Virus record (IMG/VR): IMGVR_UViG_3300046517_000617
Location: 1 to 36,330 of that record
DNA: 36,330 nt
Direction: 5' to 3' (one strand)
DNA from: a virus
In this document: positions 529 to 14,805 of the stretch, in pieces
Numbering within the stretch: position 1 is the first letter of the stretch
Layout: each line of letters opens with the position of its first letter
The notes under the pieces: generated by a model
What the model was told of the DNA's origin: nothing
The model's database searches: none
What the model saw: the letters and a program-made list of their open reading frames with translations, nothing else
Translations under genes and position numbers: made by a program

Positions 529-560
529 TCACACCTTTTCAATCCTGATTTCGGCGTGGT

Positions 561-866: not shown

Positions 867-1072
867 CGTTTCTTTCTCAATTTCCCAAGCGATTCCAAAA
901 CGGAATACATTGTGGCCGCACAATGCTTGGGGTCTTCCTCAAACATCCAATACCGTCTACCAGATGCCAAACAGTCGGCCATTATGAGCAGGTGCCGACT
1001 GGCTGGGCACGTATGTTCGATCGCTCGTTCTGCGCGGCGTCTAACGTTTTGAAGTCGATTACAGGGAAGCAT
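863..1072 (-). CDS. Hypothetical small protein, 69 aa
   Basis: Unrecognised. The protein is Arg/Cys-rich (LQNVRRRAERAIEHTCPASR at residues 7-26) and ends LGKLRKKR. Its stop codon overlaps the ATG of the VRR-NUC gene in an ATGA junction, the arrangement used by most genuine genes in this operon. The next gene upstream ends 45 bases before its start. The three cysteines and one histidine in the first half do not form an obvious zinc knuckle. Coding status rests on context, not homology. Confidence 0.5.
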   Translation of the reverse strand: MLPCNRLQNVRRRAERAIEHTCPASRHLLIMADCLASGRRYWMFEEDPKHCAATMYSVLESLGKLRKKR

Positions 1073-1117
1073 ATTAAATCAAAAACGGTTTCTTTAGCGC
1101 CTGTTGCGCCTGGTTGT

Positions 1118-2067: not shown

Positions 2068-2109
2068 TTCATCGCCTTTCTATCGGTTTAACAATTGGTT
2101 CGCGGATGG

Positions 2110-2637: not shown

Positions 2638-2843
2638 GCCTCAAAAATCACACGCCGAATTTTGATAACGCGGGAACGCTTGCGGAGCGGCTTGTCTAAC
2701 CCTCGTTTGTACGCCTGAGCATCTATTCGATAATAAAATTGTCTCTCATGCAAATAGCTCTCCGTCCCGCATATAAACTTCGATTGCACCGCGTAAAGAA
2801 TGACGCTCGATAGGGGTTTCATGGCTTTAATGTCATCCCGCAT
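2634..2843 (-). CDS. Hypothetical protein, 69 aa
   Basis: Unrecognised small protein beginning MRDDIKAMKPLSSVILYAVQ and ending in a highly basic tail (LRKRSRVIKIRRVIF). A longer frame opens at 2966, but its first 41 residues lie inside the neighbouring gene. I chose the ATG at 2843, which overlaps the end of the upstream gene by 11 bases. The downstream junction is an ATGA overlap with the methyltransferase. The basic tail would suit nucleic-acid contact. There is no family assignment. Confidence 0.6.
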   Translation of the reverse strand: MRDDIKAMKPLSSVILYAVQSKFICGTESYLHERQFYYRIDAQAYKRGLDKPLRKRSRVIKIRRVIFEA

Positions 2844-3027
2844 ATTTGTAGCCCCATTCATGCACGAGGTAGTCGATTGCATCGGCTTGGCGTTCGGTTG
2901 GTTCAAATTCCTTACGATCCTCGGTTCGGATGATTGGCGCCGGTGCCAAGATAACCCGCCGCTCAATTTCGAACTGTCCCAGCTCCAAGACTTTTAAGGC
3001 CTGCGCCTCTGAGGAAAAGTGTTTCAT
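2833..3027 (-). CDS. Hypothetical protein, 64 aa
   Basis: Small, mildly acidic protein (FSSEAQALKVLELGQFEIER, then a C-terminal helix ERQADAIDYLVHEWGYKYAG). It is coupled by ATGA overlap to the end of the replication-protein candidate upstream. No domain is recognised. The helix-rich C-terminus with Trp/Tyr could be a protein-protein interface. A role as an accessory to the adjacent replication protein is positional inference. Confidence 0.62.
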   Translation of the reverse strand: MKHFSSEAQALKVLELGQFEIERRVILAPAPIIRTEDRKEFEPTERQADAIDYLVHEWGYKYAG

Positions 3028-3821
3028 TTCAAACTCGCTTTTAGTTTCTCAAGGTCTGCCTTGGTTTGTTCGCTGATGGTTCCCTGGTCCGGTGCCGAGT
3101 CCAGGAGTGCGCTTGCAGACACGGTTTTCGTGGCTGGCCGCACGTATTGCGCTTTGAATTGACGCGCCTTATCCAATTCGCCTTGCCAGTTCTCCAAGAC
3201 GCTCTTGACCGAAGTGCGGAGCTTTGTATCGGTTTTCGATGCGGCTCGACGGTATGCCAGAATTTCAAGCCATTCGGATTCGGCTGATGGCCGGCGGCAG
3301 ACTTCGACTAGCGCAAATTCCTCGTCGTAACCCCAACGATCTTCGGGCTTTCGGTTGAAATGCTTCCCGATTTCAGCCTGAAGTTGCAGCGTCACGTTTC
3401 GCCCATTTCCCCGGCCCCCTATCCCTTCGGAAGATTCAGAGTCAGATACAGATACAGAACCTTTGGTTGTGTTACACCCTAGACGATCTCTAAACTGAGA
3501 CTGTCGCTTTCGCCCATTTTCACGAGAAATATACTCTCTTTTGAGTCTGCGGCTGGCTAGCGTTACAGACCCTGTGTTATGGAGCGTTACAACCCCAACG
3601 TCGCTTGCCAGTAGATTAGGTAGAGCGGCATTCAAGTCCCCGATACCGCAACGCAGGAGCGTCGCCAGCTCTTGCCGACTTCCCTCAAGTTTGTAGGTAT
3701 CGTTCGCTATCATGACGTTTAGTGCCTCAATCCAAAGGCCGCGCGCGGCGAGTGATGTTTTAGCGATTGTCTTTTCACTGAGCCAATCTCGGGAGAACCA
3801 TTTCTTCCATGGGAATTTCAA
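3024..3821 (-). CDS. Putative replication initiator / replisome organiser
   Basis: 265 aa. The N-terminal 90 residues (KWFSRDWLSEKTIAKTSLAA, then RGLWIEALNVMIANDTYKLE, then an LAxLL-type helix and a strand-rich GVVTLHNTGSVTL) look like the winged-helix head of phage replication organisers of the lambda O / DnaD class. A low-complexity Ser/Gly linker (about 140-165) follows, then a helical region with an RTSVKSVLENWQGELDKARQFKAQYV stretch split across 203-228, resembling DnaD-like C-terminal segments. It would recognise the origin and recruit host helicase. No helicase or loader gene is evident beside it. No clear iteron array was seen inside the gene. Confidence 0.55.
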   Translation of the reverse strand: MKFPWKKWFSRDWLSEKTIAKTSLAARGLWIEALNVMIANDTYKLEGSRQELATLLRCGIGDLNAALPNLLASDVGVVTLHNTGSVTLASRRLKREYISRENGRKRQSQFRDRLGCNTTKGSVSVSDSESSEGIGGRGNGRNVTLQLQAEIGKHFNRKPEDRWGYDEEFALVEVCRRPSAESEWLEILAYRRAASKTDTKLRTSVKSVLENWQGELDKARQFKAQYVRPATKTVSASALLDSAPDQGTISEQTKADLEKLKASLK

Positions 3822-3865
3822 AAAGTTTGTTTTAGAGTTAGGTCACGGGGTCAGAAAATAATGGG

Positions 3866-4075
3866 TCAATTTACTTTTACTGTTCCGTCTTCAATCAGCC
3901 CGAAAACTTTATCCCCGATGGGTTTGGCGTGATCGCAAAGCTCTTTTGTTTGTCCGAAGCTATGGACGGCATAAGCACCCCCATACCTCACCTCGATAAC
4001 GATTAGTTGTTTCGCGGCCCACTTCCTTGCCAAGTCTCGAATGTCAGCCATTTGTGGTGAAGGGTTCCAAGCCAT
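3866..4075 (-). CDS. Conserved phage hypothetical protein, 69 aa
   Basis: Begins MAWNPSPQMADIRDLARKWA, a pattern I associate with small phage proteins of type 'MAWxPSPxVAxARD...'. The strands KQLIVIEVRYGGAYAVHSFG and a short C-terminal VFGLIEDGTVKV suggest a small alpha/beta fold. Function is unknown. It follows the 67-aa gene by one base and lies 44 bases before the replication-protein start. Confidence 0.7.
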   Translation of the reverse strand: MAWNPSPQMADIRDLARKWAAKQLIVIEVRYGGAYAVHSFGQTKELCDHAKPIGDKVFGLIEDGTVKVN

Positions 4076-4076
4076 A

Positions 4077-4280
4077 TTAATAGTCCTTTGCGTTTATTAT
4101 GATTTTTAGATCATCCTCAGTGATGCGTTCCGAATCTCGGAAAGCCTTTAGGCGCGGCTCAAACTTTTTGTCCAAATCAGCGAGAACATTGTCGAACTTC
4201 TTCCGATCCGAGACCGCCTTTCTTCGCTCCATGCTTTTCCATTTCCTCTTTGCCTTGACGCCTCTCTTTTTGGGTTTCAC
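4077..4280 (-). CDS. Hypothetical basic protein, 67 aa
   Basis: Highly charged and predicted helical. A Lys/Arg-rich N-terminus (MKPKKRGVKAKRKWKSMERR) precedes an amphipathic helix containing DNVLADLDKKFEPRLKAF, and it ends with DDLKIIINAKDY. Its ATG overlaps the stop of the cysteine-rich gene upstream (ATGA). No family is recognised. The basic head and acidic-amphipathic tail would suit a nucleic-acid-binding accessory of the recombination/replication block. Confidence 0.65.
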   Translation of the reverse strand: MKPKKRGVKAKRKWKSMERRKAVSDRKKFDNVLADLDKKFEPRLKAFRDSERITEDDLKIIINAKDY

Positions 4281-4465
4281 AGCACACCCCTTTGCCTCAA
4301 GTCCTCGTCGTCACGTTGGAGCGAGTAATCGTTTCTGGCTTCCTCGGCGGGATCGTAGTCGTCGCTGTCGTTAAACCATTCCTCGTTAGCCTCACACGGC
4401 GCACAGAGATTGCTATGCACCGACTGAGACGGCTTGCCGCAGCATCGACAGACACGCGATCTCAT
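4277..4465 (-). CDS. Small zinc-ribbon-like protein, 62 aa
   Basis: Four-cysteine arrangement near the N-terminus: CRCCG (Cys6, Cys8, Cys9) followed by NLCAPCEAN (Cys21, Cys24), consistent with a minimal zinc ribbon. An acidic tail follows (DSDDYDPAEEARNDY). A purine-rich AAGGAGGGGGA stretch immediately precedes the ATG, and that ATG overlaps the stop of a 35-aa membrane peptide (ATGA). Phage zinc ribbons of this size are often anti-repressor or RNA-polymerase-binding adaptors. Nothing in the sequence proves such a role here. Confidence 0.68.
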   Translation of the reverse strand: MRSRVCRCCGKPSQSVHSNLCAPCEANEEWFNDSDDYDPAEEARNDYSLQRDDEDLRQRGVL

Positions 4466-4569
4466 TCCCCCTCCTTATCCGGCGGCAATGGCTCGCCTTG
4501 GCCAGCTTTGCACAGTGGCGCCCAAACTATCGCCAGGAGGATTAAAAAGCCGATGATGAGTTGGATCAT
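4462..4569 (-). CDS. Small single-span membrane peptide, 35 aa
   Basis: ATG at 4569 gives a 35-residue peptide starting MIQLIIGFLILLAIVWAPLC, an almost ideal single membrane helix, with a short Gly/Pro/Glu-rich tail. It lies 2 bases after the upstream gene's stop, and its own stop overlaps the next ATG (ATGA). It therefore fills the only gap in an otherwise contiguous operon. Function is unknown. Early-region phage microproteins of this kind sometimes act on host membranes or membrane complexes (inference). Confidence 0.6.
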   Translation of the reverse strand: MIQLIIGFLILLAIVWAPLCKAGQGEPLPPDKEGE

Positions 4570-4571
4570 AA

Positions 4572-4775
4572 TTATTTGTTTATCCACACGTCGAAAATGT
4601 CCCTAGCGGAGGCCAGCAGTCGCCAATCCTTTGCCATTTTCATCATTATCAAAAGTTCGTCCTCGTCCTCCATATCCAGCATATGTTTTCTCACCTTGCG
4701 GCTCAAATTATCGACGCGGAGCAGGAAAGACCCTCGCGCCTTGGCTTTGCAAATTTCTTCAATTTCAACACTCAC
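4572..4775 (-). CDS. Hypothetical helical protein, 67 aa
   Basis: Start chosen as GTG at 4775, which overlaps the stop of the YqaJ nuclease gene (GTGA). A longer frame reaching 4880 lies within the nuclease gene and is unlikely. The protein is helical and charged: VEIEEICKAKARGSFLLRVD, then RKVRKHMLDMEDEDELLIMM, ending ASARDIFDVWINK. No domain is recognised. Coupling to the nuclease suggests an accessory role in recombination. Confidence 0.62.
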   Translation of the reverse strand: MSVEIEEICKAKARGSFLLRVDNLSRKVRKHMLDMEDEDELLIMMKMAKDWRLLASARDIFDVWINK

Positions 4776-5458
4776 GGCGTTATCCCTTCGTAATTTGGTT
4801 GGGTTTCTCGGTCGGTGGAAAATGTCATCGGGATTCGCTTCGGCGGTGGACCTCCGTTTAGATTCAAAAGCCTGTCCCATCCCGCCGCGAACTTAACCGT
4901 AAACGCTTCCAACGCCTCGCTGAGAGCGTCCTGATAGTCAGGGTCGGGTTCAACGTCCACCATGAGCACCGGATACGGGTTGCGCTTGCTGATAAATCGC
5001 CAGCAGGGGTATTTCGTCACCCAAAGAGCCATTTGAACTTGCCCGACGTATTCGGCAGGGACTTTTCCGGCCAACAAGTAGCGGACTTGCATGGCCGGAC
5101 CAGGGCTTTTGATTTCCAACCCACGATTGCGCTCCAACCCATCAGGCGACACGCCAAATAGCCCGTCGTCAGTCGTAATGAACCCTACGCGCTGCACTTC
5201 GGCGTTGAACTTGAATTCATACCACCCGATTGCGTCTTGCTCGCCCCAATGCCCCTGGTCCGCATTCCAGAAGCTATTTGACGGCAACGGCCCTTGCCAT
5301 TTCTCAGCCAGCTTGCGGGCGAGATATTTTTCAACATCTTTGCCGGTCCTGACTTTGCCCAATGGCGTGACAAGTTCATCGGCCTCGCTCGCGGTGACGA
5401 CCCCGGCGCGGGCTTCCAGCCATTCCTGCGAACCTTGTGCCACGTTGATTATCTTCAT
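4772..5458 (-). CDS. YqaJ / lambda-exo-type recombination exonuclease
   Basis: 228 aa, in the usual range for YqaJ-like viral recombinases. Visible family motifs are QGSQEWLEARAGVVTASEAD (8-27), with the conserved W-x-x-A-R and (T/S)AS. GHWGEQDAIGWYEF follows (Glu near 73), then the metal-binding and catalytic core GLFGVSPDGL (Asp106) and LEIKSPGP (Glu115, Lys117). Enzymes of this family degrade dsDNA 5' to 3' to expose single strands for an annealing protein. The partner ERF annealing protein is two genes upstream, with an SMC-like ATPase between them. ATG overlaps the ATPase stop (ATGA). Confidence 0.92.
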   Translation of the reverse strand: MKIINVAQGSQEWLEARAGVVTASEADELVTPLGKVRTGKDVEKYLARKLAEKWQGPLPSNSFWNADQGHWGEQDAIGWYEFKFNAEVQRVGFITTDDGLFGVSPDGLERNRGLEIKSPGPAMQVRYLLAGKVPAEYVGQVQMALWVTKYPCWRFISKRNPYPVLMVDVEPDPDYQDALSEALEAFTVKFAAGWDRLLNLNGGPPPKRIPMTFSTDRETQPNYEGITP

Positions 5459-6750
5459 TTGGTGATGACTTTTCCATCCTCCACAACGAACACGCCAATG
5501 TTCTCAGGCTTTTGGGATGGAGCCTCGCCCACAATCGTTGCCAGAATTGTTGTTTCCCGTTCCTTGGCACGATTCACGTAGTCGAATATCGTGCGGCCAA
5601 GTGATTCGCCGCGGTCTATCAAATCAATCCCAAAGCCTTCTGGATAAAGCGCCGACAACTCAGAACTGAGTTGCATGATTTGGCTGGTGGAAAGCATCCC
5701 GGCCTGAGTGCCCTGATAGGTAAATGTTCCATCGCCGTCGAATGAGAGTCCTTTGATTCCAGACTTTTCCGAAACGCCTTTTAGTTTGGCGGTCTTTTCT
5801 GTTTTTATTGCCCGCTGGCGAGTTTCGAGAAGCGCCAAAGCCGTTTCATCTGCCTCTTTCTGGTTTTGCCTTTTGACGTTCTTTTCAAGTTGCTCCAATC
5901 GCACCTTGTTCGCCGCCGCTTCGTTGATTTGCGCTTCGATTGCGGACGTATCCGGGGACGGTGGCATCGCCATTATTTCTTGCGGATTCGTTCTTTCCAA
6001 CCATGCGGAAATCTCTACAAGTTCACCCTCTGACGCCTTGAGATTTGCCTTTAGCCGTGCAATTTCCTGATTGAGCTTAGCCGCAGCCTCTTTGTTCCGT
6101 TCAATATCCGCGTTAAGCCTGATTGCCCGGCTGTTGGAATCGGAAATCTCCGATACCGCCTTTGAATGCGCAGTCTTGACGCTTTTTAGCTGTTCGCGCA
6201 GCTTTGTGTCATCAATCACTTGGACCGGCGTTAAATCAATCTCGCCGTAACCCTTAATCTTCGCTCGCAAATCCTTTGCCTTGCGCTCGCATTCAAACGC
6301 CTCGCCATCCAGCTCGGACGTATCGATCGCCAGAACTTCAGCGAAGAACGATTTACGTTCTGGCTCGCCCATGTTTTTCAAATGGTCCTGATTGAGCAGG
6401 AACGGATTCAGAAATCGTTCTATCTCAGCGACGGGGCTTTGCACCGGCCTGCCATTCCTGACAAAAGTAATGGGCCTCGCCTTCGTGCTTTTATCCTTGG
6501 CGATATACCACTCACGCGAGATTAGCCCGCCGTCGAAACCGAGTTCTACCGCCGCCTCTTTCTCGCCATGGCGGATAATATCGCTTGGAAAGGAGCCGCC
6601 GAAGCACCAGCGGATCGCATTCAAGATCGTGCTTTTCCCCTGTTTCACTTCGCCGTAAAAGAGCAATAGCGGCTTATCGAAAGTGATTGTCGTGTCGGCA
6701 ATAATGCCGACATTCTTAATTTTCAGGTATTTGACTTTTATTTGATTCAT
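5455..6750 (-). CDS. SMC/RecF-like AAA ATPase of the recombination module
   Basis: 431 aa. The N-terminal head has a RecF/SbcC-like start (KYLKIKNVGIIADTTITFDK) and a Walker A loop GEVKQGKST near 33-41. A coiled coil spans about 150-310 (heptad-like KLREQLKSVKTAHSKA, RLNADIERNKEAAAKLNQEI). The C-terminal lobe has LSTSQIMQLSSEL, a degenerate ABC signature, and IDLIDRGESLG in the Walker B/D-loop position. It lacks a zinc hook, being short between coils. Such phage ATPases accompany exonuclease and annealing proteins in recombination-dependent replication. It overlaps both neighbours by 4 bases, making a tight annealer-ATPase-exonuclease cassette. Confidence 0.85.
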   Translation of the reverse strand: MNQIKVKYLKIKNVGIIADTTITFDKPLLLFYGEVKQGKSTILNAIRWCFGGSFPSDIIRHGEKEAAVELGFDGGLISREWYIAKDKSTKARPITFVRNGRPVQSPVAEIERFLNPFLLNQDHLKNMGEPERKSFFAEVLAIDTSELDGEAFECERKAKDLRAKIKGYGEIDLTPVQVIDDTKLREQLKSVKTAHSKAVSEISDSNSRAIRLNADIERNKEAAAKLNQEIARLKANLKASEGELVEISAWLERTNPQEIMAMPPSPDTSAIEAQINEAAANKVRLEQLEKNVKRQNQKEADETALALLETRQRAIKTEKTAKLKGVSEKSGIKGLSFDGDGTFTYQGTQAGMLSTSQIMQLSSELSALYPEGFGIDLIDRGESLGRTIFDYVNRAKERETTILATIVGEAPSQKPENIGVFVVEDGKVITK

Positions 6751-7499
6751 CTTGTTGATTCCCTTTTTCTAAGTTCGGCGTCCAATTCGGCATAGCGCAC
6801 TGAGCCGATTTCTTCGAATTCCTTAGCGCCGGCGAATTTCAGGAACTTCACCATGTCGGAGCCAGTTTCCAGAACGCGCTTTTTGAGGCTTGCCGCTTGC
6901 GCTGCCGTAATGAAAGCACCCTCGTTGCGCCGGTCGTCGTCTTGCTCAATAATGATGTTCAAGCAGTTGCACAGAGCGAACCGTTTTGCGTAAGTGCTGG
7001 CGCTTCCATCCGATTGGCTTTCTGTAGCCCCTGGCGGACCGCCGCCGATGCGAACCGCAAACTCATTCTGGGAACTGTGACCTGAGGTATGGCGCAGGGT
7101 GCAAATCTGAATAATGCGCGGGCCATCATACTTCTGAGAGAATGAGATCGTGAATCCATGCTTGATGAGCAACGGACGCACTTGATCCATAATGTCCTCG
7201 TATGGCGCATAAGCATATTTGACGTATTTCTGCTCACCCGCCTTGCCGCCTTGAACGGGTTTCTTGGCAGTGATATTCGGCATTTCGGCTTGCAGGGCAT
7301 TAAAGGCGGCATTGAAATCCTGCTCCGCCTTCTTGTCCTGCATCTTTTGAAAAAGTTCCAGCATCTTCCCAAGAGCTTCGGTGTTCTCGGTCGTGATGCC
7401 TTTATCGAGCGTCGTTTGCAGCATCATCCCGACTTGCGACAACGGATCGTCGCGCAGGGCGACTGGCTGAGATTCGATTTTGGCTAATGATTCATTCAT
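6747..7499 (-). CDS. erf: ERF-family single-strand annealing protein
   Basis: 250 aa from the ATG at 7499. A GTG at 7511 is also in frame, but a GAGG sits about 11 bases before the ATG and falls inside the longer version's start. The ERF core is clear: KYAYAPYEDIMDQVRPLLIK, then GFTISFSQ, a strand TLRHTSGHS, and the signature ATESQSDGSASTYAKRF with the S-x-x-(T/S)YA(K/R)R motif, then EQDDD. ERF proteins form rings on ssDNA and anneal complementary strands, here with the YqaJ exonuclease. The C-terminal 60 residues are helical and may bind the ATPase. Confidence 0.92.
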   Translation of the reverse strand: MNESLAKIESQPVALRDDPLSQVGMMLQTTLDKGITTENTEALGKMLELFQKMQDKKAEQDFNAAFNALQAEMPNITAKKPVQGGKAGEQKYVKYAYAPYEDIMDQVRPLLIKHGFTISFSQKYDGPRIIQICTLRHTSGHSSQNEFAVRIGGGPPGATESQSDGSASTYAKRFALCNCLNIIIEQDDDRRNEGAFITAAQAASLKKRVLETGSDMVKFLKFAGAKEFEEIGSVRYAELDAELRKRESTR

Positions 7500-7504
7500 A
7501 AATT

Positions 7505-7693
7505 TCACCACCTCGCTTTCTGCGGCCCAACCGCCGCGGCGTTTTCCCGGCCCTTAATCGCGCTTACATCCGCCATCACCTCGGCCTGAGTCTCGCGCCA
7601 TGGCGTATAAAATCCTTGGCACGAGGCGCGATAAACCGGCCCTTCACATTCAAGTTTCCAGCCGAGTTGCCAGAGCTGTTCAACGATGGTCAT
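7505..7693 (-). CDS. Hypothetical protein, 62 aa
   Basis: Start placed at the ATG at 7693, which overlaps the stop of the upstream gene (ATGA). The 101-aa frame reaching 7810 lies mostly inside that gene. The sequence has a compact alpha/beta look: MTIVEQLWQLGWKLECEGPV, YRASCQGFYTPWRETQAE, then a helical, basic tail. Phages often carry a small protein of this shape (a short helix plus 'G-x-x-F-x-A-x-x-A' element), but I cannot name a family. It lies 5 bases before the ERF gene. Confidence 0.62.
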   Translation of the reverse strand: MTIVEQLWQLGWKLECEGPVYRASCQGFYTPWRETQAEVMADVSAIKGRENAAAVGPQKARW

Positions 7694-7932
7694 ACCTTCA
7701 CAACCTCCGTGGTTTGTGCCGACGCTTCGCAGATCGCTTTGTGCTTGGCCTCGGCTCTTAAACCCAAGGCATCGTTGATTTGGTTCCTCAAAATTTCCAG
7801 TTGTTCCCAAGTGATGAACTGCCGAATTCGGTCGTCAGACACTCTAAAAAGAATGCTGGTATAGGGACGGTCTAGTTCGTCGGTTTCGACGTGGGTTACA
7901 AGTCCTTGCTCTACGTAGCTGGTTACATCCAT
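7690..7932 (-). CDS. Hypothetical protein, 80 aa
   Basis: Unrecognised. The N-terminus looks beta-rich (VEQGLVTHVETDELDRPYTS, ILFRVSDDRIRQFITW), and a helix around EQLEILRNQINDALGL is followed by an Ala/Lys-rich tail. It is coupled downstream by ATGA overlap. A CTACGTAG palindrome lies inside the first codons (7911-7918), matching one in the control region at 9914-9921. This could be coincidence. Confidence 0.62.
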   Translation of the reverse strand: MDVTSYVEQGLVTHVETDELDRPYTSILFRVSDDRIRQFITWEQLEILRNQINDALGLRAEAKHKAICEASAQTTEVVKV

Positions 7933-7936
7933 AAAA

Positions 7937-8194
7937 TTACTTACTAACCGCCGCGATTATCGTCCACACAACGAAACCGAACGCGAAGATGAATCCGGCC
8001 AGCACCGCGTAAATCAGCACCATTTGAATGCTTTCACTGCGATCAACCTGGCGCTTGGCTTTTTGGTAATCCGCCTCGGCCCTGTTGTAATCGTCTAAAA
8101 GCGTTTCTGCGTTTTTGTAATTCTGCCAATCTTGAAAACGCTGCCGAGCTGCCTGGGATTGTTCTTCGCAATGAATTGAATAAAGTGTTTTCAT
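7937..8194 (-). CDS. Tail-anchored membrane protein, 85 aa
   Basis: The N-terminal 55 residues are charged and predicted coiled coil (AARQRFQDWQNYKNAETLLD, AEADYQKAKRQVDR). A single hydrophobic span follows at about 58-82 (MVLIYAVLAGFIFAFGFVVW). The layout suggests a cytoplasmic coiled coil anchored at the inner membrane by its C-terminus. It overlaps the upstream lipoprotein gene by 4 bases (ATGA). A lipoprotein plus membrane protein in the early region would suit superinfection exclusion or host takeover, which is inference from placement. Confidence 0.68.
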   Translation of the reverse strand: MKTLYSIHCEEQSQAARQRFQDWQNYKNAETLLDDYNRAEADYQKAKRQVDRSESIQMVLIYAVLAGFIFAFGFVVWTIIAAVSK

Positions 8195-8439
8195 TTGGAT
8201 TCAATTGCCGATGCGTCGGTAACTTCACAGACCGAAACGGCGTCTTTATAGCTGGAGTGAACCAATAGAAAGCGATGGCCTGAATTAGTGACCATCATCA
8301 CCCGGACAGAGCAGAAATAACCATCGGCGGGAATTATGGTTTTTGGAATACTGTCCGCCTCGGTGATGTGCGTTGTGGCCCTCTCTTCATAGCACCCGGT
8401 TAGTAACAGCGCTATTAAGATTGAATAAAGTATTTTCAT
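8191..8439 (-). CDS. Small lipoprotein, 82 aa
   Basis: Signal peptide MKILYSILIALLLTGC with a lipobox LLTGC, so lipidation is expected at Cys16. The mature part is about 66 residues with possible strands (YFCSVRVMMVTNSGHRFLLV) and two further cysteines (Cys43 and Cys71) that could form a disulphide. It is ATGA-coupled on both sides. Early-region phage lipoproteins are commonly involved in blocking secondary infection at the receptor. That is a family-level precedent, not shown here. Confidence 0.72.
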   Translation of the reverse strand: MKILYSILIALLLTGCYEERATTHITEADSIPKTIIPADGYFCSVRVMMVTNSGHRFLLVHSSYKDAVSVCEVTDASAIESK

Positions 8440-8726
8440 AGATCCTCGCGGACTTTGATGACTTTCTCGGCTGTTTTAGCCGCCGTAAAATTCTGCAATT
8501 CCGAGCTGGTCAATCCGTATTCAACCAGATTTCCAGCGTCGTTTAACTTTACATAAAATTCCCTCGGCTCCGGCTTGATGCGGTGGTCGCAATTGTTGTC
8601 TAATGGAAAATTCTCCTCATCACATAACCACCAATTGTTGCCACTTCTACACGTTTGCTGAATGCGCTTTCCATCCAACCACGCCTGAAGGATTGGGATG
8701 AGTTGCCTGATTTGCTCTTTGGTCAT
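8436..8726 (-). CDS. Conserved small phage protein, 96 aa
   Basis: Starts MTKEQIRQLIPILQAWLDGK, followed by a Trp-containing strand (NNWWLCDEENFPLD) and the sequence HRIKPEPREFYV. The order 'helix plus AW-x-x-G-K, Trp strand, YRIKPEPREFW' recurs in small early proteins of many phages. I recognise the pattern but not a function. It is ATGA-coupled to both neighbours. Confidence 0.72.
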   Translation of the reverse strand: MTKEQIRQLIPILQAWLDGKRIQQTCRSGNNWWLCDEENFPLDNNCDHRIKPEPREFYVKLNDAGNLVEYGLTSSELQNFTAAKTAEKVIKVREDL

Positions 8727-8935
8727 CGCACTTCCTCTGGTTCAGGACACATCGCGTAAACATCGGAGCGGACAATCCGCACCCATCTGTTTTCCATCAA
8801 TCGGTATCGCATTTTTCCCTTCACTGGTTTTTTGTTGTCATCAAGTTTGATGAGGTTCTTGTCGATTGTGTCCACGCTCCATCGCAGGTATTCCGCCGCT
8901 TCACTGCGCGTTACCCATGGGGAGTCGGGGGTCAC
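8723..8935 (-). CDS. HTH DNA-binding protein, excisionase/MerR-like
   Basis: 70 aa from a GTG at 8935. This start overlaps the methyltransferase stop (GTGA) and has a perfect AGGAGG 10 bases upstream (8946-8951). The helix-turn-helix is WVTRSEAAEYLRWSVDTIDK, typical of HTH_17/excisionase-type winged helices, followed by a wing (MRYRLMENRWVRIVRSDVYA) in the usual place. It could be the excisionase for the integrase in the other arc or a transcription regulator. It lies in the leftward operon and so would be made during lytic expression, which suits an excisionase. Confidence 0.75.
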   Translation of the reverse strand: MTPDSPWVTRSEAAEYLRWSVDTIDKNLIKLDDNKKPVKGKMRYRLMENRWVRIVRSDVYAMCPEPEEVR

Positions 8936-9666
8936 AAACTCAAAACCTCCTGTTGCAGCCGTCGCGCGGACGATTCGCAATGCGCCTCGTCAATGTCTAT
9001 GCCAATTGCGTTTCTCCCCAAGTCTTTGGCCGCTCTTAAAGTGGTCCCACTCCCCATAAATGGGTCTAAAACGGTATCCCCCAGATCGGTAGTGGCCAAA
9101 ATCGCCCGCAATGGATACTCGAGCGGGAACGCACACGGATGAAACCCTGAAACCTGATTGCCAAGTTTCCAGACCGTTAAATATCCAACGCAGTCTTGGT
9201 TCCATTTGTGCTTTTCCTTTACAAGCCAGTAAATTCTTTCATCAGACGGCCCAAACATTCTGGCATTTAACGTGCAGCTGCCATCGCGCTGCCAAATGAT
9301 TTCTTGCCTCACCCTCCACGGGGAACGCCTAATCCAATCCAACGGGAAAATGATATTGCCGTCACGCCATCTCAATTTATGGTTGTAAAACAAAGATCCG
9401 GTTGCCCCAATGCACCGATGAAGCAACTCCAGAATGTTGGATTGCCATTGCTGGTAATTTTCCTCTGGCATCGAATCAAAATAACCGTCTGAAATTTTGT
9501 CTACCCACCGCGTCTCCTTGTGCATCCCTGACGGCCTAAATGTATCAATTTTCTGATTATACGGCGGGCTGGTAACGGCGAGATGTATTTCCGGCAACGT
9601 CGGCAAAATCTCGCGGCAATCGCCGTGATAAATCACTATCCCGTTTTCTGAGTAATAGGGGGTCAC
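8932..9666 (-). CDS. DNA methyltransferase, SPPY-type (N4-cytosine/N6-adenine)
   Basis: 244 aa from a GTG at 9666, which overlaps the RHH gene stop (GTGA). The longer frame to 9765 lies inside that gene. The catalytic motif IV TSPPYN (32-37) precedes the S-adenosylmethionine motif DPFMGSGTT (201-209), so the order is the beta class. FHPCAFPLEYPLRAI and GRNAIGIDIDEAHCESSARR surround the cofactor pocket. No cognate restriction gene is seen. Likely a solitary methyltransferase guarding phage DNA or modulating operator binding. It is the second gene of the leftward operon, hence expressed very early. Confidence 0.92.
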   Translation of the reverse strand: MTPYYSENGIVIYHGDCREILPTLPEIHLAVTSPPYNQKIDTFRPSGMHKETRWVDKISDGYFDSMPEENYQQWQSNILELLHRCIGATGSLFYNHKLRWRDGNIIFPLDWIRRSPWRVRQEIIWQRDGSCTLNARMFGPSDERIYWLVKEKHKWNQDCVGYLTVWKLGNQVSGFHPCAFPLEYPLRAILATTDLGDTVLDPFMGSGTTLRAAKDLGRNAIGIDIDEAHCESSARRLQQEVLSL

Positions 9667-9845
9667 GCGGCTTTTCGCTTCTCGGAATTCAAATCGATGC
9701 GGACCAACGTGCGGATGTATTCGCTGAATGTGGCCATCTTGAGGTCGCGCATCCGTGCGTGGCACTCCTGAAACAGGTCATTCGAAATGGCTATAGACCG
9801 CTTGCCCAACACGGCTTTTTTCTCTTTGGATTGTTTGTCTTTCAT
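9663..9845 (-). CDS. Ribbon-helix-helix regulator A (leftward)
   Basis: 60 aa. A basic leader (KDKQSKEKKAVLG) precedes the RHH core. The DNA-contacting strand KRSIAIS is followed by helix 1 NDLFQECHARMRDLK and helix 2 ATFSEYIRTLVRIDL. The same core, with matching spacing, is found in the two plus-strand RHH proteins at 9972-10151 and 10148-10384, so the three are paralogues. It is first in the leftward operon and is transcribed away from the shared control region. Likely role: Arc/Mnt/CopG-type repressor controlling the divergent promoters and its own synthesis (inference). Confidence 0.8.
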   Translation of the reverse strand: MKDKQSKEKKAVLGKRSIAISNDLFQECHARMRDLKMATFSEYIRTLVRIDLNSEKRKAA

Positions 9846-9971
9846 AATGGAATAGCTACTAATTCGCTAAAAGTAGGAAAACTAACTACTTTTGTCCAGA
9901 ACTATTTTTCTATCTACGTAGTTTTTCTTGTAGACAAAGGCCGTCCAGTGTGAATAAGTAGGAAGAATGTT
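9846..9971. promoter_or_regulatory. Divergent control region with CTAC/GTAG operators
   Basis: This 126-base AT-rich gap separates the two divergent RHH operons. It contains an inverted repeat AAAAGTAG (9869-9876) / CTACTTTT (9886-9893) with a 9-base spacer, and a perfect palindrome CTACGTAG (9914-9921). Further CTAC/GTAG half-sites lie near 9856, 9931 and 9958. Repeated 4-base half-sites of alternating orientation are what RHH dimers bind. Both arcs must start here, but I could not identify convincing -35/-10 pairs, so exact promoters are left open. Confidence 0.7.
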
Positions 9972-10151
9972 ATGAATACTAACGAGAAAAGGGATTGGGA
10001 AAGGGCTGTTAAAAAATCCGTCAGTATGCCAAAAATACTTTTGGATGAGGCGGAAACTAGACGGCGGGAAACAAGATTAACGACACTTTCTGATTATATT
10101 CAGTGGCTAATCAGGGAAGACGTGAACAGAAACAGGCGGATGGCCGCGTGA
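9972..10151 (+). CDS. Ribbon-helix-helix regulator B (rightward)
   Basis: 59-aa gene with ATG at 9972. The core reads VKKSVSMPKILLDEAETRRR (14-33) then TLSDYIQWLIREDV, aligning residue for residue with regulator A's strand and helices (K-(R/K)-S-(I/V), S-x-Y-I-x-x-L-(I/V)-x-x-D). A purine stretch AGTAGGAAGAATG lies just upstream and may double as ribosome site and operator. Its stop overlaps the GTG of the next RHH gene. It is probably an antagonist or co-repressor to regulator A. Confidence 0.8.
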   Translation: MNTNEKRDWERAVKKSVSMPKILLDEAETRRRETRLTTLSDYIQWLIREDVNRNRRMAA

Positions 10152-10384
10152 GCGCCAAGAAGCGGTCTATTAGCGCCCCGGAAGAATTATTTCAGGAAGC
10201 CGATGCGCGTTGGAAGCGCCTGCGCTACAAAAAGTTCTCGCAATATATCCAAGAGCTTATAGAATCTGATGTCGAAAACAGGCCCGCGCATGGCGCACGA
10301 ACCGAGCGACAACCAAAACCAAATCCTGCACCCGCTACAAAGTTGGCACAGTTGGCGAAGACAAGGGCAATTCATTCAAAATGA
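10148..10384 (+). CDS. Ribbon-helix-helix regulator C (rightward)
   Basis: 78 aa from GTG at 10148, overlapping the previous stop (GTGA). A frame from 10103 exists but would overlap gene B by 49 bases. The core KKRSISAPEELFQEADARWK then KFSQYIQELIESDV matches regulators A and B. A 35-residue Pro/Gln/Lys-rich tail, absent from the other two, extends it. The tail could mediate multimerisation or contact RNA polymerase (inference). B and C are adjacent paralogues, probably a tandem duplication. Confidence 0.78.
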   Translation: MSAKKRSISAPEELFQEADARWKRLRYKKFSQYIQELIESDVENRPAHGARTERQPKPNPAPATKLAQLAKTRAIHSK

Positions 10385-10511
10385 CATGCCCATATTCATT
10401 CCAGATTTGCGCGGCCCAATCCGCGAACTGGAACGCCATAGCCAGTTTCTCCTGTTCTGTCATGCCCACAAGCATGGCGATCAATTCGGGGTCGGTAAGG
10501 ATGGATAACAT
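10335..10511 (-). CDS. Possible small protein, 58 aa, antisense to the RHH-C 3' end
   Basis: ATG at 10511 on the minus strand opens a 58-codon frame starting MLSILTDPELIAMLVGMTEQ, with a helix EKLAMAFQFADWAAQIWNEY. The composition looks more like a folded protein than the plus-strand frames here, which read as shadow sequence. It overlaps the end of regulator C by 50 bases in convergent orientation. It would be a lone leftward gene upstream of the switch. No ribosome site is evident, so this is tentative. Confidence 0.4.
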   Translation of the reverse strand: MLSILTDPELIAMLVGMTEQEKLAMAFQFADWAAQIWNEYGHVILNELPLSSPTVPTL

Positions 10512-10605
10512 AGGGAAGGATTTATCCGAAAGTCACCCAACCGTTGCAACGCCGTATCCTTCGGAACGGTTTCCCGAATAATACGTATAGTCAATAAGTG
10601 ACATT
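10385..10605. other. Intergenic segment before the integrase cassette
   Basis: No convincing plus-strand gene is seen here. Two plus-strand frames are open (10269-10508, 10381-10581), but their Ser/Cys/Ile-rich composition looks like the antisense of the minus-strand 58-aa frame. A palindrome ATACGTAT (10581-10588) lies about 18 bases before the next ATG and shares its TACGTA centre with the control-region palindrome. It may be an operator for the integrase cassette. Confidence 0.4.
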
Positions 10606-10839
10606 ATGCGCTTCCTCGAATTCCTTGAACCGTTCGCCTATGCGTTTGCTGGAATAGCGGCGATTATCGGTGTTGTCTATTTGATTTACGTCGCATGGGC
10701 ATGGCTGCTATTTCCCTTCAAAGTTTTGCACAGAATGGACCGCCTGATAGATTTGCAGAGCCAAACGAACACGCAACTTGCGGCCCTGAATCAGCGTCTC
10801 GGCTCCGCTGAGATTGTTACCGAACAAGTGGACGCATGA
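10606..10839 (+). CDS. Small membrane protein, 77 aa
   Basis: Hydrophobic N-terminal half (FLEPFAYAFAGIAAIIGVVY, then VAWAWLLFPFKVLH) with one long or two short membrane spans across about 7-40. A C-terminal amphipathic helix follows (RMDRLIDLQSQTNTQLAALN) that could form a coiled coil. Its stop overlaps the integrase ATG (ATGA), so the two are translationally coupled, which is unusual for an integrase. Function unknown. Confidence 0.68.
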   Translation: MRFLEFLEPFAYAFAGIAAIIGVVYLIYVAWAWLLFPFKVLHRMDRLIDLQSQTNTQLAALNQRLGSAEIVTEQVDA

Positions 10840-12104
10840 GCTTCACCCTACTCACCCCCGGCATCTACAAAGATTCGCGCACGGGCAATTTCTTCGAACG
10901 TCCGCGCGTTAATGGCCGTCGAACGTGGCGCAAACTCCATAGCCGCACGCTCAAGCTGGCGCGGGAAGAACTTGCGGCCAAACGGTCGGACCATGCCCGG
11001 TCAAAGCTAGGACTCGCCAAGAATCCCTATGATGCCAAGCCGCATTCGATAGGCGGTTTGTGTATTCAATACCTCGAAGCTGGTTGCCCCAATCGCCAGC
11101 AGCAGGAACGCACCGGCAAACAGTTGGCCCAGGAACAGTTTCGGCTAAACGCTTTGATACCCTTTTGGAAAAACATATTCCCCACCGAGGTGAAGTATTC
11201 GCACTATTCACAGTATTTCAACTGGCGCAAGAAACAGACGAAGAAAGCGCGATTTGGCGGTCGCGCGGTGGACATGGAATTAAACACGCTTTCGAATGCG
11301 CTGAGTTGGGCGTTGTCAGTCGGCAAGATTGAGATCAACCCATGCGCGGGCGGGCGCCCACGATTCAGGCCGGGTAACACGGTACGGCACTGCCGCGAGT
11401 TCGCACCATTGGACGGTAACGAGCTGCACGCATTGGCCGGCCATTTCTTTGAAGACCGCCGCAGCGAAGTCCTCGGCTGGCAACTGTTAATCGAAGCGAT
11501 GACGGGGTGTAGAACTTCCGAGGTGTTGAAATTGCGTCTCGATGCCAGGCACAAGGGCGAACCGGGATTCATTGATCATCTTCCTGATTCCGGGAAGGTG
11601 ATGGTACAAGATGGAAATCATGGATGGCTATGGATAGCTCGCTCGAAAGGCGGGGTGAAACCGTTTGTTCAGATTCATCCGGCGCTTGCTGAGTGCTTGG
11701 AATCGTTCAACCGCTGGCATCTGTGGCGGTTCCCAAAGTCAAAATGGTGGTTCCCTAGCTCGCGTAAAGGCGAACATCTGCCAATTGACCTCGGTTCACT
11801 CACGCAGGCGCTCAAGATGGCCGGGAAGCTGATTGCTGGCGCTCACCGCACGTCTCACGGCTTGCGAGCCTACTACGTCACCGTGCGGCGTTCCCAAGGC
11901 ATACCCGATGCACAGATAGCGGACGAAATAGGCGATAGGACCGGCGCGGCCATGATTGTCTCGACATACGGCAGCGTCCCGCCGAATTGGCGCGGCTCTG
12001 AGGCGATTCAATGGCTCCCGACGAAGGGTAAACCGGCGTGGACGGTGTTGAAGATGCCGGAGAATGTGGTGGCGCTTGACAGCGGGGTTAAAGTGGCGGG
12101 GTGA
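10836..12104 (+). CDS. int: Tyrosine recombinase integrase
   Basis: 422 aa. The N-terminal region (1-65) with a three-strand-like start FTLLTPGIYKDSRTG and VNGRRTWRKL matches the arm-binding domain of phage integrases. The core-binding domain lies around 70-180. The catalytic domain shows Arg226 in TGCRTSEVLKL, a Lys in RSKGG (271), H-x-x-R in SHGLRAYYV (341-344) and nucleophile Tyr378 in VSTYGSVPPNW. The box II second His is replaced by Asp (IGDRTG, 366-367). It catalyses attP x attB recombination into tRNA-Arg. attP lies about 1.1 kb downstream, on the same side as the cargo-like genes. Confidence 0.95.
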   Translation: MSFTLLTPGIYKDSRTGNFFERPRVNGRRTWRKLHSRTLKLAREELAAKRSDHARSKLGLAKNPYDAKPHSIGGLCIQYLEAGCPNRQQQERTGKQLAQEQFRLNALIPFWKNIFPTEVKYSHYSQYFNWRKKQTKKARFGGRAVDMELNTLSNALSWALSVGKIEINPCAGGRPRFRPGNTVRHCREFAPLDGNELHALAGHFFEDRRSEVLGWQLLIEAMTGCRTSEVLKLRLDARHKGEPGFIDHLPDSGKVMVQDGNHGWLWIARSKGGVKPFVQIHPALAECLESFNRWHLWRFPKSKWWFPSSRKGEHLPIDLGSLTQALKMAGKLIAGAHRTSHGLRAYYVTVRRSQGIPDAQIADEIGDRTGAAMIVSTYGSVPPNWRGSEAIQWLPTKGKPAWTVLKMPENVVALDSGVKVAG

Positions 12105-12307
12105 AATTGGCGCACATTGTAGAGGATGCGAGATTTGTGCTGGCGATAGGAATGGCGGTCGTATTTTTCACCATCATGCTTTTGCTCGGCAGTATTATAA
12201 GGCTGTTCGACTTGTTGGATTTGGGAACGGCTGCGGACGTGGTTGCAATCGCGGCGGAAGGATTTTACGATTGGGGATGGGATGCAGTTAGGAAGGTTAA
12301 GCCATGA
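12101..12307 (+). CDS. Small membrane protein, 68 aa
   Basis: GTG start at 12101 overlaps the integrase stop (GTGA). A membrane span occupies about 12-37 (FVLAIGMAVVFFTIMLLLGS). It is followed by an amphipathic tail containing LGTAADVVAIAAEGFYDWGW and a basic end. Its stop overlaps the ATG of the 276-aa gene (ATGA), so the two form a coupled pair between int and attP. Unknown function; a cargo/lysogenic-conversion pair is possible. Confidence 0.62.
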   Translation: MKLAHIVEDARFVLAIGMAVVFFTIMLLLGSIIRLFDLLDLGTAADVVAIAAEGFYDWGWDAVRKVKP

Positions 12308-13134
12308 ATGTTTCAAAGAGGTCTTATACAACAATGGCTCTGAACTTCGCGCCTTACATCAAGAAGCACCAGACAAGTTGGGACGAGCTGGCTGAACAAT
12401 TCAAATCCCTTGGCCAAGAATCGACAATGGCCGATTCTCATTTGAGCGCACCCGATCAAGAATGGGATTCTTATCTGAAGAGGGCAACTTTCGCTATGGA
12501 ATGGTTGGTTAACAAATCGGATGCGGTGCACATTTTTATTCAATCCTCTAATTTTGTTAATTGGCTTATTTCATGCGTTCCAGATGTTTTCGGGGACGCC
12601 AAATATCTAAAGGATGCAATAAGCATAAGCGAAAACAAATTCCCGTGCGTAGTTCATTTTCCCACGTCTTCGGGATACAGCTCTTTCATCTATTGGGCAG
12701 GGGACCAAAACAAGGAGCTTATGCTTTTGGATATTAGCCGTGGAAACAAATCGGGAATCGGGACACTCGCGATCAACGCCAATCACATAGGCGAAATTGA
12801 TAAACAATGGCTTCCTTACGTCAAAATCGTTTTAGCATTGGGAATGTACGTGTCGTGCTTTCCTGAAACCGTAAAGACCGGGCCACCGGACGATTTAAGA
12901 CACCCATCGCTTCATTCTTATAAAAGTTCGCAGACAATTGAAGTGTCTCCAAAAATTGTAAATCCGATAAGCCACGAAAGCCCGACTGCACACTTCAGAA
13001 AAGGGCATTTTAGGATTTTACAATCTGAGAAATTCACCAATAAAAGGTTTCAGGTAATTTTCGTGCGGCAGACTTTCGTAAAAGGAAAAGCCGTGACGAT
13101 TGTTTCCCCGGAAGAGGCTACGGTCTGTAGTTAA
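12304..13134 (+). CDS. Unknown cargo-like protein, 276 aa
   Basis: No family is assigned. The first 200 residues look like a folded alpha/beta domain with Trp/Phe-rich segments (TFAMEWLVNKSDAVHIFIQS, IYWAGDQNKELMLLDISRGN). The C-terminal segment SPTAHFRKGHFRILQ ... KRFQVIFVRQTFVKG resembles the 'H-x-R-(R/K)-G-H-(W/F)-R ... I-x-V-x-x-x-x-V-x-G' tail I associate with uncharacterised mobile-element proteins. It ends exactly where the attP arm repeats begin. A gene squeezed between int and attP is a classic site for phage cargo such as defence or immunity genes. That role is inference. Confidence 0.72.
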   Translation: MNVSKRSYTTMALNFAPYIKKHQTSWDELAEQFKSLGQESTMADSHLSAPDQEWDSYLKRATFAMEWLVNKSDAVHIFIQSSNFVNWLISCVPDVFGDAKYLKDAISISENKFPCVVHFPTSSGYSSFIYWAGDQNKELMLLDISRGNKSGIGTLAINANHIGEIDKQWLPYVKIVLALGMYVSCFPETVKTGPPDDLRHPSLHSYKSSQTIEVSPKIVNPISHESPTAHFRKGHFRILQSEKFTNKRFQVIFVRQTFVKGKAVTIVSPEEATVCS

Positions 13135-13158
13135 ATGGTATTCCAGATGGTATACGGC
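13135..13158 (+). promoter_or_regulatory. Integrase arm-type sites, left pair
   Basis: Two copies of ATGGTAT start at 13135 and 13147, exactly 12 bases apart. The second extends to ATGGTATACGGC. The same pair with the same 12-base spacing lies at 13354-13377 on the other side of the tRNA-derived core, in the same orientation. Paired direct repeats flanking a core on both sides are the classic pattern of integrase arm binding. Confidence 0.78.
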
Positions 13159-13199
13159 AAGTATCCGGAAATTCCGGACAGCTCAAACACTAAGCGGGC

Positions 13200-13246
13200 T
13201 GGTGCACCCATCAGGAGTTGAACCTGAAACCTTCTGATCCGTAGTT
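13200..13246 (-). other. attP: attP core: 3' half of a tRNA-Arg(ACG) gene
   Basis: Read on the minus strand, the segment gives the anticodon loop CTACGGA (anticodon ACG), the 3' anticodon stem TCAGA and variable loop AGGTT. The T arm TCAGG-TTCAACT-CCTGA, the 3' acceptor TGGGTGC, discriminator A and CCA follow. The 5' half is absent: the bases before the loop do not pair with TCAGA and no D arm follows. So it is not a functional tRNA but the identity block that restores the host tRNA after integration. It sits between two pairs of arm-type repeats and downstream of int. Confidence 0.85.
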
Positions 13247-13353
13247 TTCTGTAAGCATAACCGCTGGCAACCTAAAGCGAGGTAAAAAGTCACTTCCAAC
13301 CGCATTTTAACGAGGGTTTTAGACCGTAGTCGACCGAACTAGACGGATTTGGA

Positions 13354-13377
13354 ATGGTATGCGAAATGGTATACGGC
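13354..13377 (+). promoter_or_regulatory. Integrase arm-type sites, right pair
   Basis: ATGGTAT at 13354 and again at 13366, 12 bases apart. The second reads ATGGTATACGGC, identical over 12 bases to the left-hand second copy at 13147-13158. Same orientation and spacing as the left pair. Confidence 0.78.
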
Positions 13378-13474
13378 CAAAAGAAAGTTGAAAATAGTTC
13401 TTGCATAGCGAAGCGGTTGGGTTTAGTGTGTGGGTATGAAAGATAAAATCTCTCATGGCGGAAGCGCGATAACG

Positions 13475-13741
13475 ATGACGGAATATGAAGTTCGCGAGAT
13501 AGACGAATTTGGTGACTGTCAAAGCGTGGACCATTATCCATCAAAACGTGAAGCTTTGGAGGCTGGAAAACAGGCGCTATTGGCTTCAAAAGCCGTGGCT
13601 ATCGAAAAACACACATCGCGTCGGCCTGTTCACTTGTTTAATGAGCCCGACAGATTTACAACTATTGCAGTCATGGGCGATAAGTCCGCGCTGGAGCTTT
13701 GGGGATGGAAGCCAGGCGAATCGACACATTTGGAGGATTGA
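13475..13741 (+). CDS. Hypothetical protein, 88 aa
   Basis: Start placed at the ATG at 13475, preceded by GGCGGAAG. Alternative in-frame starts at 13430 (GTG) and 13436 (ATG) add 13-15 residues. The protein starts MTEYEVREIDEFGDCQSVDH and has a helix SKREALEAGKQALL and a beta-like tail, a small alpha/beta fold of unknown family. Its stop shares a base with the next ATG (TGATG). First gene of a four-gene plus-strand run after attP. Confidence 0.6.
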   Translation: MTEYEVREIDEFGDCQSVDHYPSKREALEAGKQALLASKAVAIEKHTSRRPVHLFNEPDRFTTIAVMGDKSALELWGWKPGESTHLED

Positions 13742-13932
13742 TGAAAACACCAAACCCACACGCCGCAGCATTAGGCCGCCTCGGAGGTTCGGCCAAGTCA
13801 AAAGCTAAGACCCGCGCGGCCCGCAAGAACGCCAAGAAGGGCGGCTGGCCGAAGGGAAGGCCGAGACGTATATCGGCGGCAGAACTGCTTTGGTGGAAGA
13901 AAACGCTTCCGCTTAGAAAGAAACCACTATGA
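13741..13932 (+). CDS. Small basic protein, 63 aa
   Basis: Sequence MKTPNPHAAALGRLGGSAKS followed by a Lys/Arg/Ala-rich run (KTRAARKNAKKGGWPKGRPR) resembles the widespread 'xxAALGRKGG-x-KGGxARA' small proteins. These often occur near phage or toxin-antitoxin-like loci and probably bind nucleic acid. The C-terminus ISAAELLWWKKTL is amphipathic. Start set by overlap with the preceding stop. Function unknown. Confidence 0.65.
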   Translation: MKTPNPHAAALGRLGGSAKSKAKTRAARKNAKKGGWPKGRPRRISAAELLWWKKTLPLRKKPL

Positions 13933-14288
13933 CCCCCGAAATTAGCGACGAGGCGCGGAAGTGCGATGCCGCCAAACAGTTGTTAGATGATTTGGATGCG
14001 CAAACTTATGCACCAAATAGATTCGCAGACCTTGCCATCATCCAGCGCCACCTTTCGGCCTACGCCATCGCCTATCACGAATCGAAGTCGAAGGAGTTGG
14101 TGAGGGATAAGGAACGCAAGGAATGGTTGTTATCTCAATGCAAAATAGTTCACTTTATCCGCGATGAGGCAAACGATTTAGGGAATTATCCCGTCGAGCA
14201 TTACGCAAACGTTGGAAAACTAATGATTGACGACAACTATATCGACACCGCCATGAACAACACCGCAACAAAGGAGAAACATGACTAA
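13929..14288 (+). CDS. Hypothetical protein, 119 aa
   Basis: Coupled by ATGA overlap to the preceding gene and overlapping the next by 8 bases. Mostly helical and charged (DAAKQLLDDLDAQTYA, FADLAIIQRHLSAYAIAY, KSKELVRDKERKEWLL), with an acidic tail. No family recognised. Confidence 0.65.
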   Translation: MTPEISDEARKCDAAKQLLDDLDAQTYAPNRFADLAIIQRHLSAYAIAYHESKSKELVRDKERKEWLLSQCKIVHFIRDEANDLGNYPVEHYANVGKLMIDDNYIDTAMNNTATKEKHD

Positions 14289-14805
14289 GGAAGCAATCGA
14301 ACGAATCGAGACACAGGCGAAGGAGCTTGCCGTAATGGCGGCACAGACGAAGGAGATTGAAAAGCTAACCGAGATAAATAAACGTGCCCGCGAAGATTGG
14401 GCCGACGATGACACAAGGGTCAAGGAAGCCGCCAAGCCATTCTTTACCGACTTCGAGATTAACGGTGACAGCTACGGTGTTCCGGGTGTCATTGATATTG
14501 CGGAGTTGATGGCCAAACGGATTCAGGAGCAGGCGAAGGAGATTGAGGGGTTGAAAGCCCAACGGGAAGGCGTCTCTCAAACCATTGGTCAATTCATCGC
14601 CCAGACAGAAACCCTCCGCACCGAAAACGAGAGGCTGAGGAAGGCGTTGGTAAGAATCGCTAACGGGTGGGGGTGGCAAGGAATAATTGCTTTCGACACA
14701 TTGGGGATTCAAGTGCGAGGCAAAACCTGCGAAGAAGCCAAAGCCCTGCTGGCGGAGGTGCCAATCAAGGCAACCGACCGTGCATCCGATACCAGTGCCC
14801 ATTGA
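14281..14805 (+). CDS. Hypothetical coiled-coil protein, 174 aa
   Basis: Two helical stretches with heptad-like pattern (IERIETQAKELAVMAAQTKE at 5-24; ELMAKRIQEQAKEIEGLKAQ at about 75-94, then TETLRTENERLRKALVRIAN) flank a beta-like segment FFTDFEINGDSYGVPGVIDI. It is last in the rightward arc and overlaps the convergent lipoprotein gene tail to tail by 41 bases. No family recognised. Confidence 0.65.
   Translation: MTKEAIERIETQAKELAVMAAQTKEIEKLTEINKRAREDWADDDTRVKEAAKPFFTDFEINGDSYGVPGVIDIAELMAKRIQEQAKEIEGLKAQREGVSQTIGQFIAQTETLRTENERLRKALVRIANGWGWQGIIAFDTLGIQVRGKTCEEAKALLAEVPIKATDRASDTSAH

Follow-up and report, generated by a model that had tools for sequence, protein, structure and literature searches.

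Paralogous ribbon-helix-helix proteins around a divergent control region: a probable lysis-lysogeny switch in a tailed phage genome

Introduction

Models of the phage decision between lysis and lysogeny have mostly been built on helix-turn-helix CI/Cro pairs. In lambda (CI/Cro) and P2 (C/Cox), opposed regulators are encoded at a divergent control region, and none of these is a ribbon-helix-helix (RHH) protein. P2 also keeps its repressor and integrase in one operon and an excisionase-like factor on the lytic arm, and lambda CI carries an S24 domain for RecA-linked induction. In P22, mnt and arc-ant are divergently transcribed.

The P22 repressors Arc and Mnt are small RHH paralogues of 53 and 82 aa, about 40% similar, which share one control region; one serves the lytic state and the other the lysogenic state (PMC7549136). 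Arc and Mnt belong to immI (mnt, arc, ant), which P22 carries next to immC as a second control region (PMC8022706, PMC7549136). F55 of the archaeal fusellovirus SSV1, a temperate virus, is a CI-like RHH protein that keeps lysogeny by binding to short tandem repeats at several of the early promoters and at its own, and a review describes a single RHH protein and no opposed Cro-like RHH paralogue (PMC5569661). Cooperative binding of RHH dimers to multiple operator sites has been described (PMC5569661). YosL, a predicted Arc-type RHH protein, was proposed as a component of SPbeta induction (PMC10516654). In the archaeal lipothrixvirus AFV6, AvtR (gp29) is a tandem RHH monomer, and AvtR/gp30 are not described as an integrase switch. 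Both RHH repressors of lysogeny, such as SSV1 F55, and opposed pairs of RHH proteins, such as P22 immI, are already known; the literature covered, mostly open-access papers, yielded no account of opposed RHH paralogues serving as the main switch for a group of phages.

Results

Gene map of the window

The analysed virus record, referred to here as the window, is a stretch of 36,330 bases. Comparison of its proteins with PHROGs marks it as a tailed phage, with a terminase, a portal, a head maturation protease, an Erf annealing protein, an exonuclease and a tyrosine integrase. The codon-based gene map has two minus-strand blocks (67-9765 and about 14,765-36,177) and one plus-strand block (9972-14,805). 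Gene order suggests that the molecule is circular, a property that the record itself does not show. If it is, both minus-strand blocks would form one long lytic arc that begins at the gene designated RHH_L. The sole major divergent junction of the map lies at 9846-9971, and a second divergent junction hinges on a doubtful 58-aa ORF. The large features are:

67-9765, minus strand: early part of the lytic arc, with Erf annealing protein, exonuclease, SbcC-like ATPase, nucleases and methyltransferases (gene map, PHROGs)
15227-36177, minus strand: late part, on the same strand as the early lytic arc, with terminase, portal, protease/capsid and other virion genes (gene map, PHROGs)
9846-9971: divergent control region, 126 bp, 34% GC (sole major divergent junction; composition)

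In a 743-aa protein of the late part (28909-31140, minus strand), the first half contains a ClpP-type head maturation protease domain; the long C-terminal part may be the capsid protein.

Three small RHH paralogues flank the control region

The first-pass annotation had placed three paralogous RHH proteins around a divergent control region, one facing the lytic arc and two facing the integrase arc. The three ORFs are indeed open, the region between them is divergent, and the gene map bears out the direction of each arm:

9663-9845, minus strand: RHH_L, 60 aa, first gene of the lytic arc (ORF, paralogy, AlphaFold/Foldseek)
9972-10151, plus strand: RHH_I1, 59 aa, first gene of the integrase arc (ORF, paralogy, AlphaFold; weak NikR-model match, E 0.0024)
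10148-10384, plus strand: RHH_I2, 78 aa, GTG start, C-terminal tail (ORF, paralogy)
8932-9666, minus strand: N6/N4 DNA methyltransferase (PF01555, E 9e-36; phrog_67)
10606-10839, plus strand: small predicted membrane protein of the integrase arc (phrog_1009 of unknown function, E 3e-4; membrane call by eye from the sequence)

RHH_L overlaps the methyltransferase gene by 4 nt (GTGA), and RHH_I1 overlaps RHH_I2 in the same way (4 nt, GTGA). Convergent with RHH_I2 is a 58-aa ORF (10335-10511, minus strand) with a positive coding score and no family match.

The claimed common core of the three proteins was supported by BLASTP, shuffle z-scores, profile comparison and AlphaFold models. Pairwise BLASTP gave 26.9, 39.7 and 34.7 bits, with 37-45% identity across 38-46 residues, and shuffle z-scores among the three ranged from 12.6 to 17. 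No Pfam or PHROG family was found above threshold for any of them, and neither the RHH_1 nor the Arc model matched; a curated model match is useful for database work and does not define the fold. When a 7-sequence profile was searched against the PDB, it retrieved NikR (E 0.004), MazE6, a CopG-family chain and Arc (E 0.62). AlphaFold modelled RHH_L and RHH_I1 as an extended stretch followed by two confident helices (residues 22-34 and 40-59 in RHH_L, 21-34 and 39-58 in RHH_I1; pLDDT about 94), with the beta strand itself left unassigned in these single-chain models. Foldseek matches in the PDB were mostly RHH proteins (MatP, NikR, ParD2, MazE, CopASO, CopG, CdbA), every one with E >0.2, which is unsurprising as the fold has only 40 residues. 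The predicted structures fit the RHH (Arc/MetJ/CopG) fold, in which about 45 residues form a beta strand and then two helices. Members of this superfamily bind the major groove of DNA as dimers, through their paired strands. At the positions which, by strand alignment, we take to be the DNA-facing residues of Arc and CopG, all three proteins have K-S-(A/S).

DNA-level comparison of the three paralogues gave no sign of recent duplication; RHH_L and RHH_I2 have in common a near-identical 15-nt stretch that encodes the strand (p 0.04). Pattern scans of viral and genome contigs detected no close relatives of the trio, and tblastn in a phage collection found nothing.

Candidate operators in the control region

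The tetramer CTAC/GTAG is strongly clustered between the two arms:

9856-9961: candidate operators CTAC/GTAG at 9856, 9873, 9886, 9914, 9918, 9930 and 9958 (motif cluster)

The control region holds 7 copies against 0.4 expected from the genome, and not one of 20,000 dinucleotide shuffles of the region reached at least 7 (mean 1.4). AAAA aside, CTAC/GTAG forms the strongest tetramer cluster of the whole genome. The sites form a palindrome, CTACGTAG, at 9914-9921 and an inverted pair with 13-bp spacing (9873 and 9886), and a direct repeat, AAGTAGGAA, is found at 9871 and 9956. The motif was chosen post hoc; the result still holds under a rough correction (<1 in 20,000 shuffles, times 136 tetramers), but when the most frequent tetramer, whichever it is, is taken from each shuffled copy of the region, a count of 7 is reached with P 0.06. 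Since CTAC/GTAG was picked after inspection, the cluster is good evidence of a non-independent kind. Scans for sigma-70 promoters and for terminators were no better than chance, and the control region showed no sigma-70-like promoter.

Integrase, putative attP and candidate excisionase

The integrase sits on the arc headed by RHH_I1 and RHH_I2, an arc that ends near a putative attachment site, and a candidate excisionase was also located:

10836-12104, plus strand: tyrosine integrase (phrog_1, E 3e-26)
13200-13250, minus strand: putative attP, the 3' half of a tRNA-Arg(ACG) through CCA, 66 nt past the 12304-13134 ORF (sequence)
8723-8980, minus strand: candidate excisionase (HTH_17-like) on the lytic arc (weak: phrog_66, E 0.019; TIGR01764, E 0.037, below cut-off)

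The tRNA half matched the 3' end of an ARAGORN-called tRNA-Arg(acg) at 39 of 40 positions in one of the 388 genomes of the phylum searched. The stretch at 13200-13250 was not called by Rfam, and an exact scan of viral contigs for it found nothing, nor did an integrase scan. The half tRNA is a plausible attP, and its internal position suits a free genome better than an integrated one. In a relative, G011, a tRNA-like stretch was seen at the start of the integrase gene (L100 11885-11961; Rfam tRNA 22.1 bits, below gathering), which is perhaps the attP of that phage.

No CI/Cro-type repressor domain was detected

The first-pass annotation had seen no CI/Cro-like gene, and HTH_3 and Peptidase_S24 searches of the window, empty for both, agree with it. 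A switch of the lambda CI/Cro type would have an HTH_3-type repressor, often with Peptidase_S24; above cut-off, neither domain was found in the window or in eight relatives. Only sub-threshold HTH_3 stretches were observed, in four of the eight, and no S24. No antirepressor-like gene was recognised among the window proteins scanned.

The divergent pair recurs in distant relatives

Relatives were collected as 80 viral loci by terminase alignment, and 33 whole records were searched. Pairs were found with an RHH profile (G020) and then by inspection of divergent small genes and integrase neighbourhoods. Integrase was detected with phrog_1 in the window and in G002, G011, G015, G018, G022 and G023, the last of which is cut off beside its integrase fragment. 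All six integrase-bearing records in which the region is intact, the window included, have a divergent RHH or RHH-like pair beside the integrase. These terminase-identified relatives show that the arrangement in the window is not a one-off. RHH_I genes precede the integrase in the window, G022, G011, G015 and G018; in G002 the integrase is on the opposite strand and the plus-strand RHH gene does not lead into it. G020 and G007 have a pair and no detected integrase. G007 (L105) carries three small RHH-like genes (8760-8990, 9202-9396 and 9495-9656), and its pair without a detected integrase indicates that a pair need not imply lysogeny.

Pair identity is strong in the window and G022, and paralogy between the arms is clear in G015 (z 8.1). 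By profile comparison, the window trio is linked with the pairs of G020 (E 4e-8) and G022 (E 2e-4). One arm of G018 (G018_L) matches Pfam RHH_1 (E 4e-7). Both arms of G011 match phrog_3887 (E 0.17 and 4e-4); profile comparison of this pair with the 7-sequence alignment was not significant, so its RHH identity is drawn from phrog_3887 and from reading by eye. RHH calls were made by eye or from a weak profile for the pairs of G002 and G007 and for parts of those in G018 and G011. Aligning the pairs of G007, G002 and G018 globally was uninformative, and PDB searches with single G007 and G018 proteins or with the G020 pair profile matched no RHH chain.

Repeats were also seen in control regions of relatives. 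That of G002 has a perfect 16-bp direct repeat, CAAGTTGTATTACAAA (L092 9412 and 9466), with one equally long in none of 100 shuffles; that of G011 (L100 11509-11569) has a 14-bp palindrome, GTTGTATATACAAC, and an inverted repeat, AGTTACGC/GCGTAACT.

Arms of one phage tend to resemble each other

Pair members were more similar within a phage than between phages (median z 7.1 vs 0.3), and label permutation with the window left out gave p of about 0.001 for this excess. The coupling was clear in the window, G022 and G015 and present in G020 and G011, though pair members of these last two had their best partners in other phages. Similarity between pair members was undetectable in G018, G007 and G002. 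The predicted DNA-reading strand also tracks the phage: K-S-S/A in the window, x-G-S in G020, P-G-S/A in G022 and a shared NFKLS in G015. If both arms share an operator, greater likeness within a phage is expected; the simplest account would be that the two must read the same operator and hence duplicate or diverge together.

Discussion

We consider it probable that the lysis-lysogeny switch of this phage is made of paralogous RHH repressors that share CTAC/GTAG operators in the 126-bp control region. The sequence itself provides the gene order, the paralogy, a predicted RHH-type fold, the motif cluster, a putative attP, the lack of detectable CI-type domains and the recurrence of the arrangement. 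Comparison with distant relatives strengthens this reading: in the window phage and several distant integrase-bearing relatives, two or three back-to-back proteins of the Arc/CopG fold seem to decide between lysis and lysogeny, and their genes seem to occupy the position that CI and Cro have in textbook phages.

The best reading is that the switch would work like Arc/Mnt of P22 immI and sit as the main switch. RHH_L heads the lytic arc and RHH_I1/I2 the integrase arc, and both sides would read short CTAC/GTAG operators. In the lysogen, RHH_I1/I2 would keep the lytic promoter shut, a Mnt- or CI-like role, and their operon would also supply integrase. Once the phage grows lytically, RHH_L would take the Arc- or Cro-like part, closing the integrase arc and damping expression from its own promoter; an excisionase-like gene is present on the lytic arc. 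These roles are assigned on the model of P22 Arc and Mnt, with lysogeny predicted to be maintained by the proteins of the integrase arc and ended by that of the lytic arc. The RHH proteins of the window would bind DNA and may compete with each other, and mixed dimers between paralogues are possible.

Predicted opposed regulators at a divergent control region are seen here as in lambda and P2, and a predicted repressor in one putative operon with integrase, with a candidate excisionase on the lytic arm, as in P2; the regulators differ in being RHH proteins, and the S24 domain of lambda CI was not found in the window. The first-pass annotation had called the switch unlike the lambda type. That description is fair, but the arrangement is not without parallel, since an RHH paralogue pair sharing a control region has a precedent in P22 immI (Arc/Mnt). 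As in immI, divergently encoded paralogous RHH proteins surround one control region, their repressor role here being predicted. P22 immI is secondary to a CI-like immC repressor and controls the antirepressor Ant, whereas neither a CI-like gene nor ant was found in the window. The window also differs in having two RHH genes on one side and in a pair that lies beside the integrase and heads the lytic arc. With no CI-like domain and no recognised antirepressor, we propose an Arc/Mnt-like way of working and do not class the locus as an immI region. Set against SSV1 F55, which binds repeats at its own and early promoters, the window has a repeat cluster of candidate operators that its RHH proteins may bind.

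The main rival to a switch built of RHH proteins is an immI-like secondary role, in which these proteins regulate only themselves or local genes (e.g. integrase or methyltransferase) and immunity comes from an unrecognised repressor elsewhere. P22 sets the example, with immI a second region beside immC (PMC8022706, PMC7549136), and many small ORFs of the window have no family match. We nevertheless judge this unlikely, as neither HTH_3 above cut-off nor S24 was found in the window or the eight relatives, the RHH junction is the sole major divergent one and no antirepressor-like gene was recognised.

Two other readings fit less well. RHH_I1/I2 might be accessory factors of recombination (directionality factors or integrase regulators) and RHH_L a general early-gene repressor, with no mutual switch; this agrees with the RHH_I genes upstream of the integrase in the window, G022, G011, G015 and G018 and with a weak match of G018_I to a phrog named recombinase. 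It is quite improbable in view of G002, whose plus-strand RHH gene does not lead into the integrase, of the pairs without detected integrase in G007 and G020, and of the likeness of the two arms within a phage, which suggests a shared site. Least credible of all, and in our view very improbable, is that the proteins are orphan antitoxins of the ParD/CopG kind or toxin-antitoxin remnants. ParD, MazE and CopASO antitoxins do appear among the Foldseek and profile matches, but no adjacent toxin family was found in Pfam, NCBIfam or PADLOC, the surrounding genes encode a methyltransferase, a membrane protein and an integrase, and relatives show the divergent arrangement again at their switch position. 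A type II antitoxin with an RHH domain was disfavoured because no toxin was found next to these genes.

Returning to the RHH switch, a more tentative extension would apply it to a clade of tailed temperate phages. There, opposed RHH paralogues might be the only lysis-lysogeny switch, the two arms might evolve in step with their operators when immunity types diverge, and the threshold of the decision may be set by mixed dimers between the arms; we regard this as possible but doubtful. If true, a conserved switch consisting solely of RHH proteins, each about 60 residues long, would be a very small circuit. Since it has no S24 part to link induction to DNA damage, the question arises how these prophages are induced. 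In several phages the DNA-reading strand is common to both arms and not shared between phages, which would make them a tractable system for the diversification of immunity types. Annotation by curated families overlooks such a switch, because most of these proteins match none.

Cellular RHH genes were seen in the 388 genomes mentioned above, which belong to the phylum of an uncultured Verrucomicrobiales bin. No prophage with an RHH pair was found among them; their RHH genes are chromosomal, occur singly and are not divergent, and NikR-like genes are present as well. Among those seen, the nearest cellular look-alike of the window proteins is a conserved chromosomal family of 94-aa RHH proteins (L159 4785-5069, L160 4543-4827 and L161 5124-5408).
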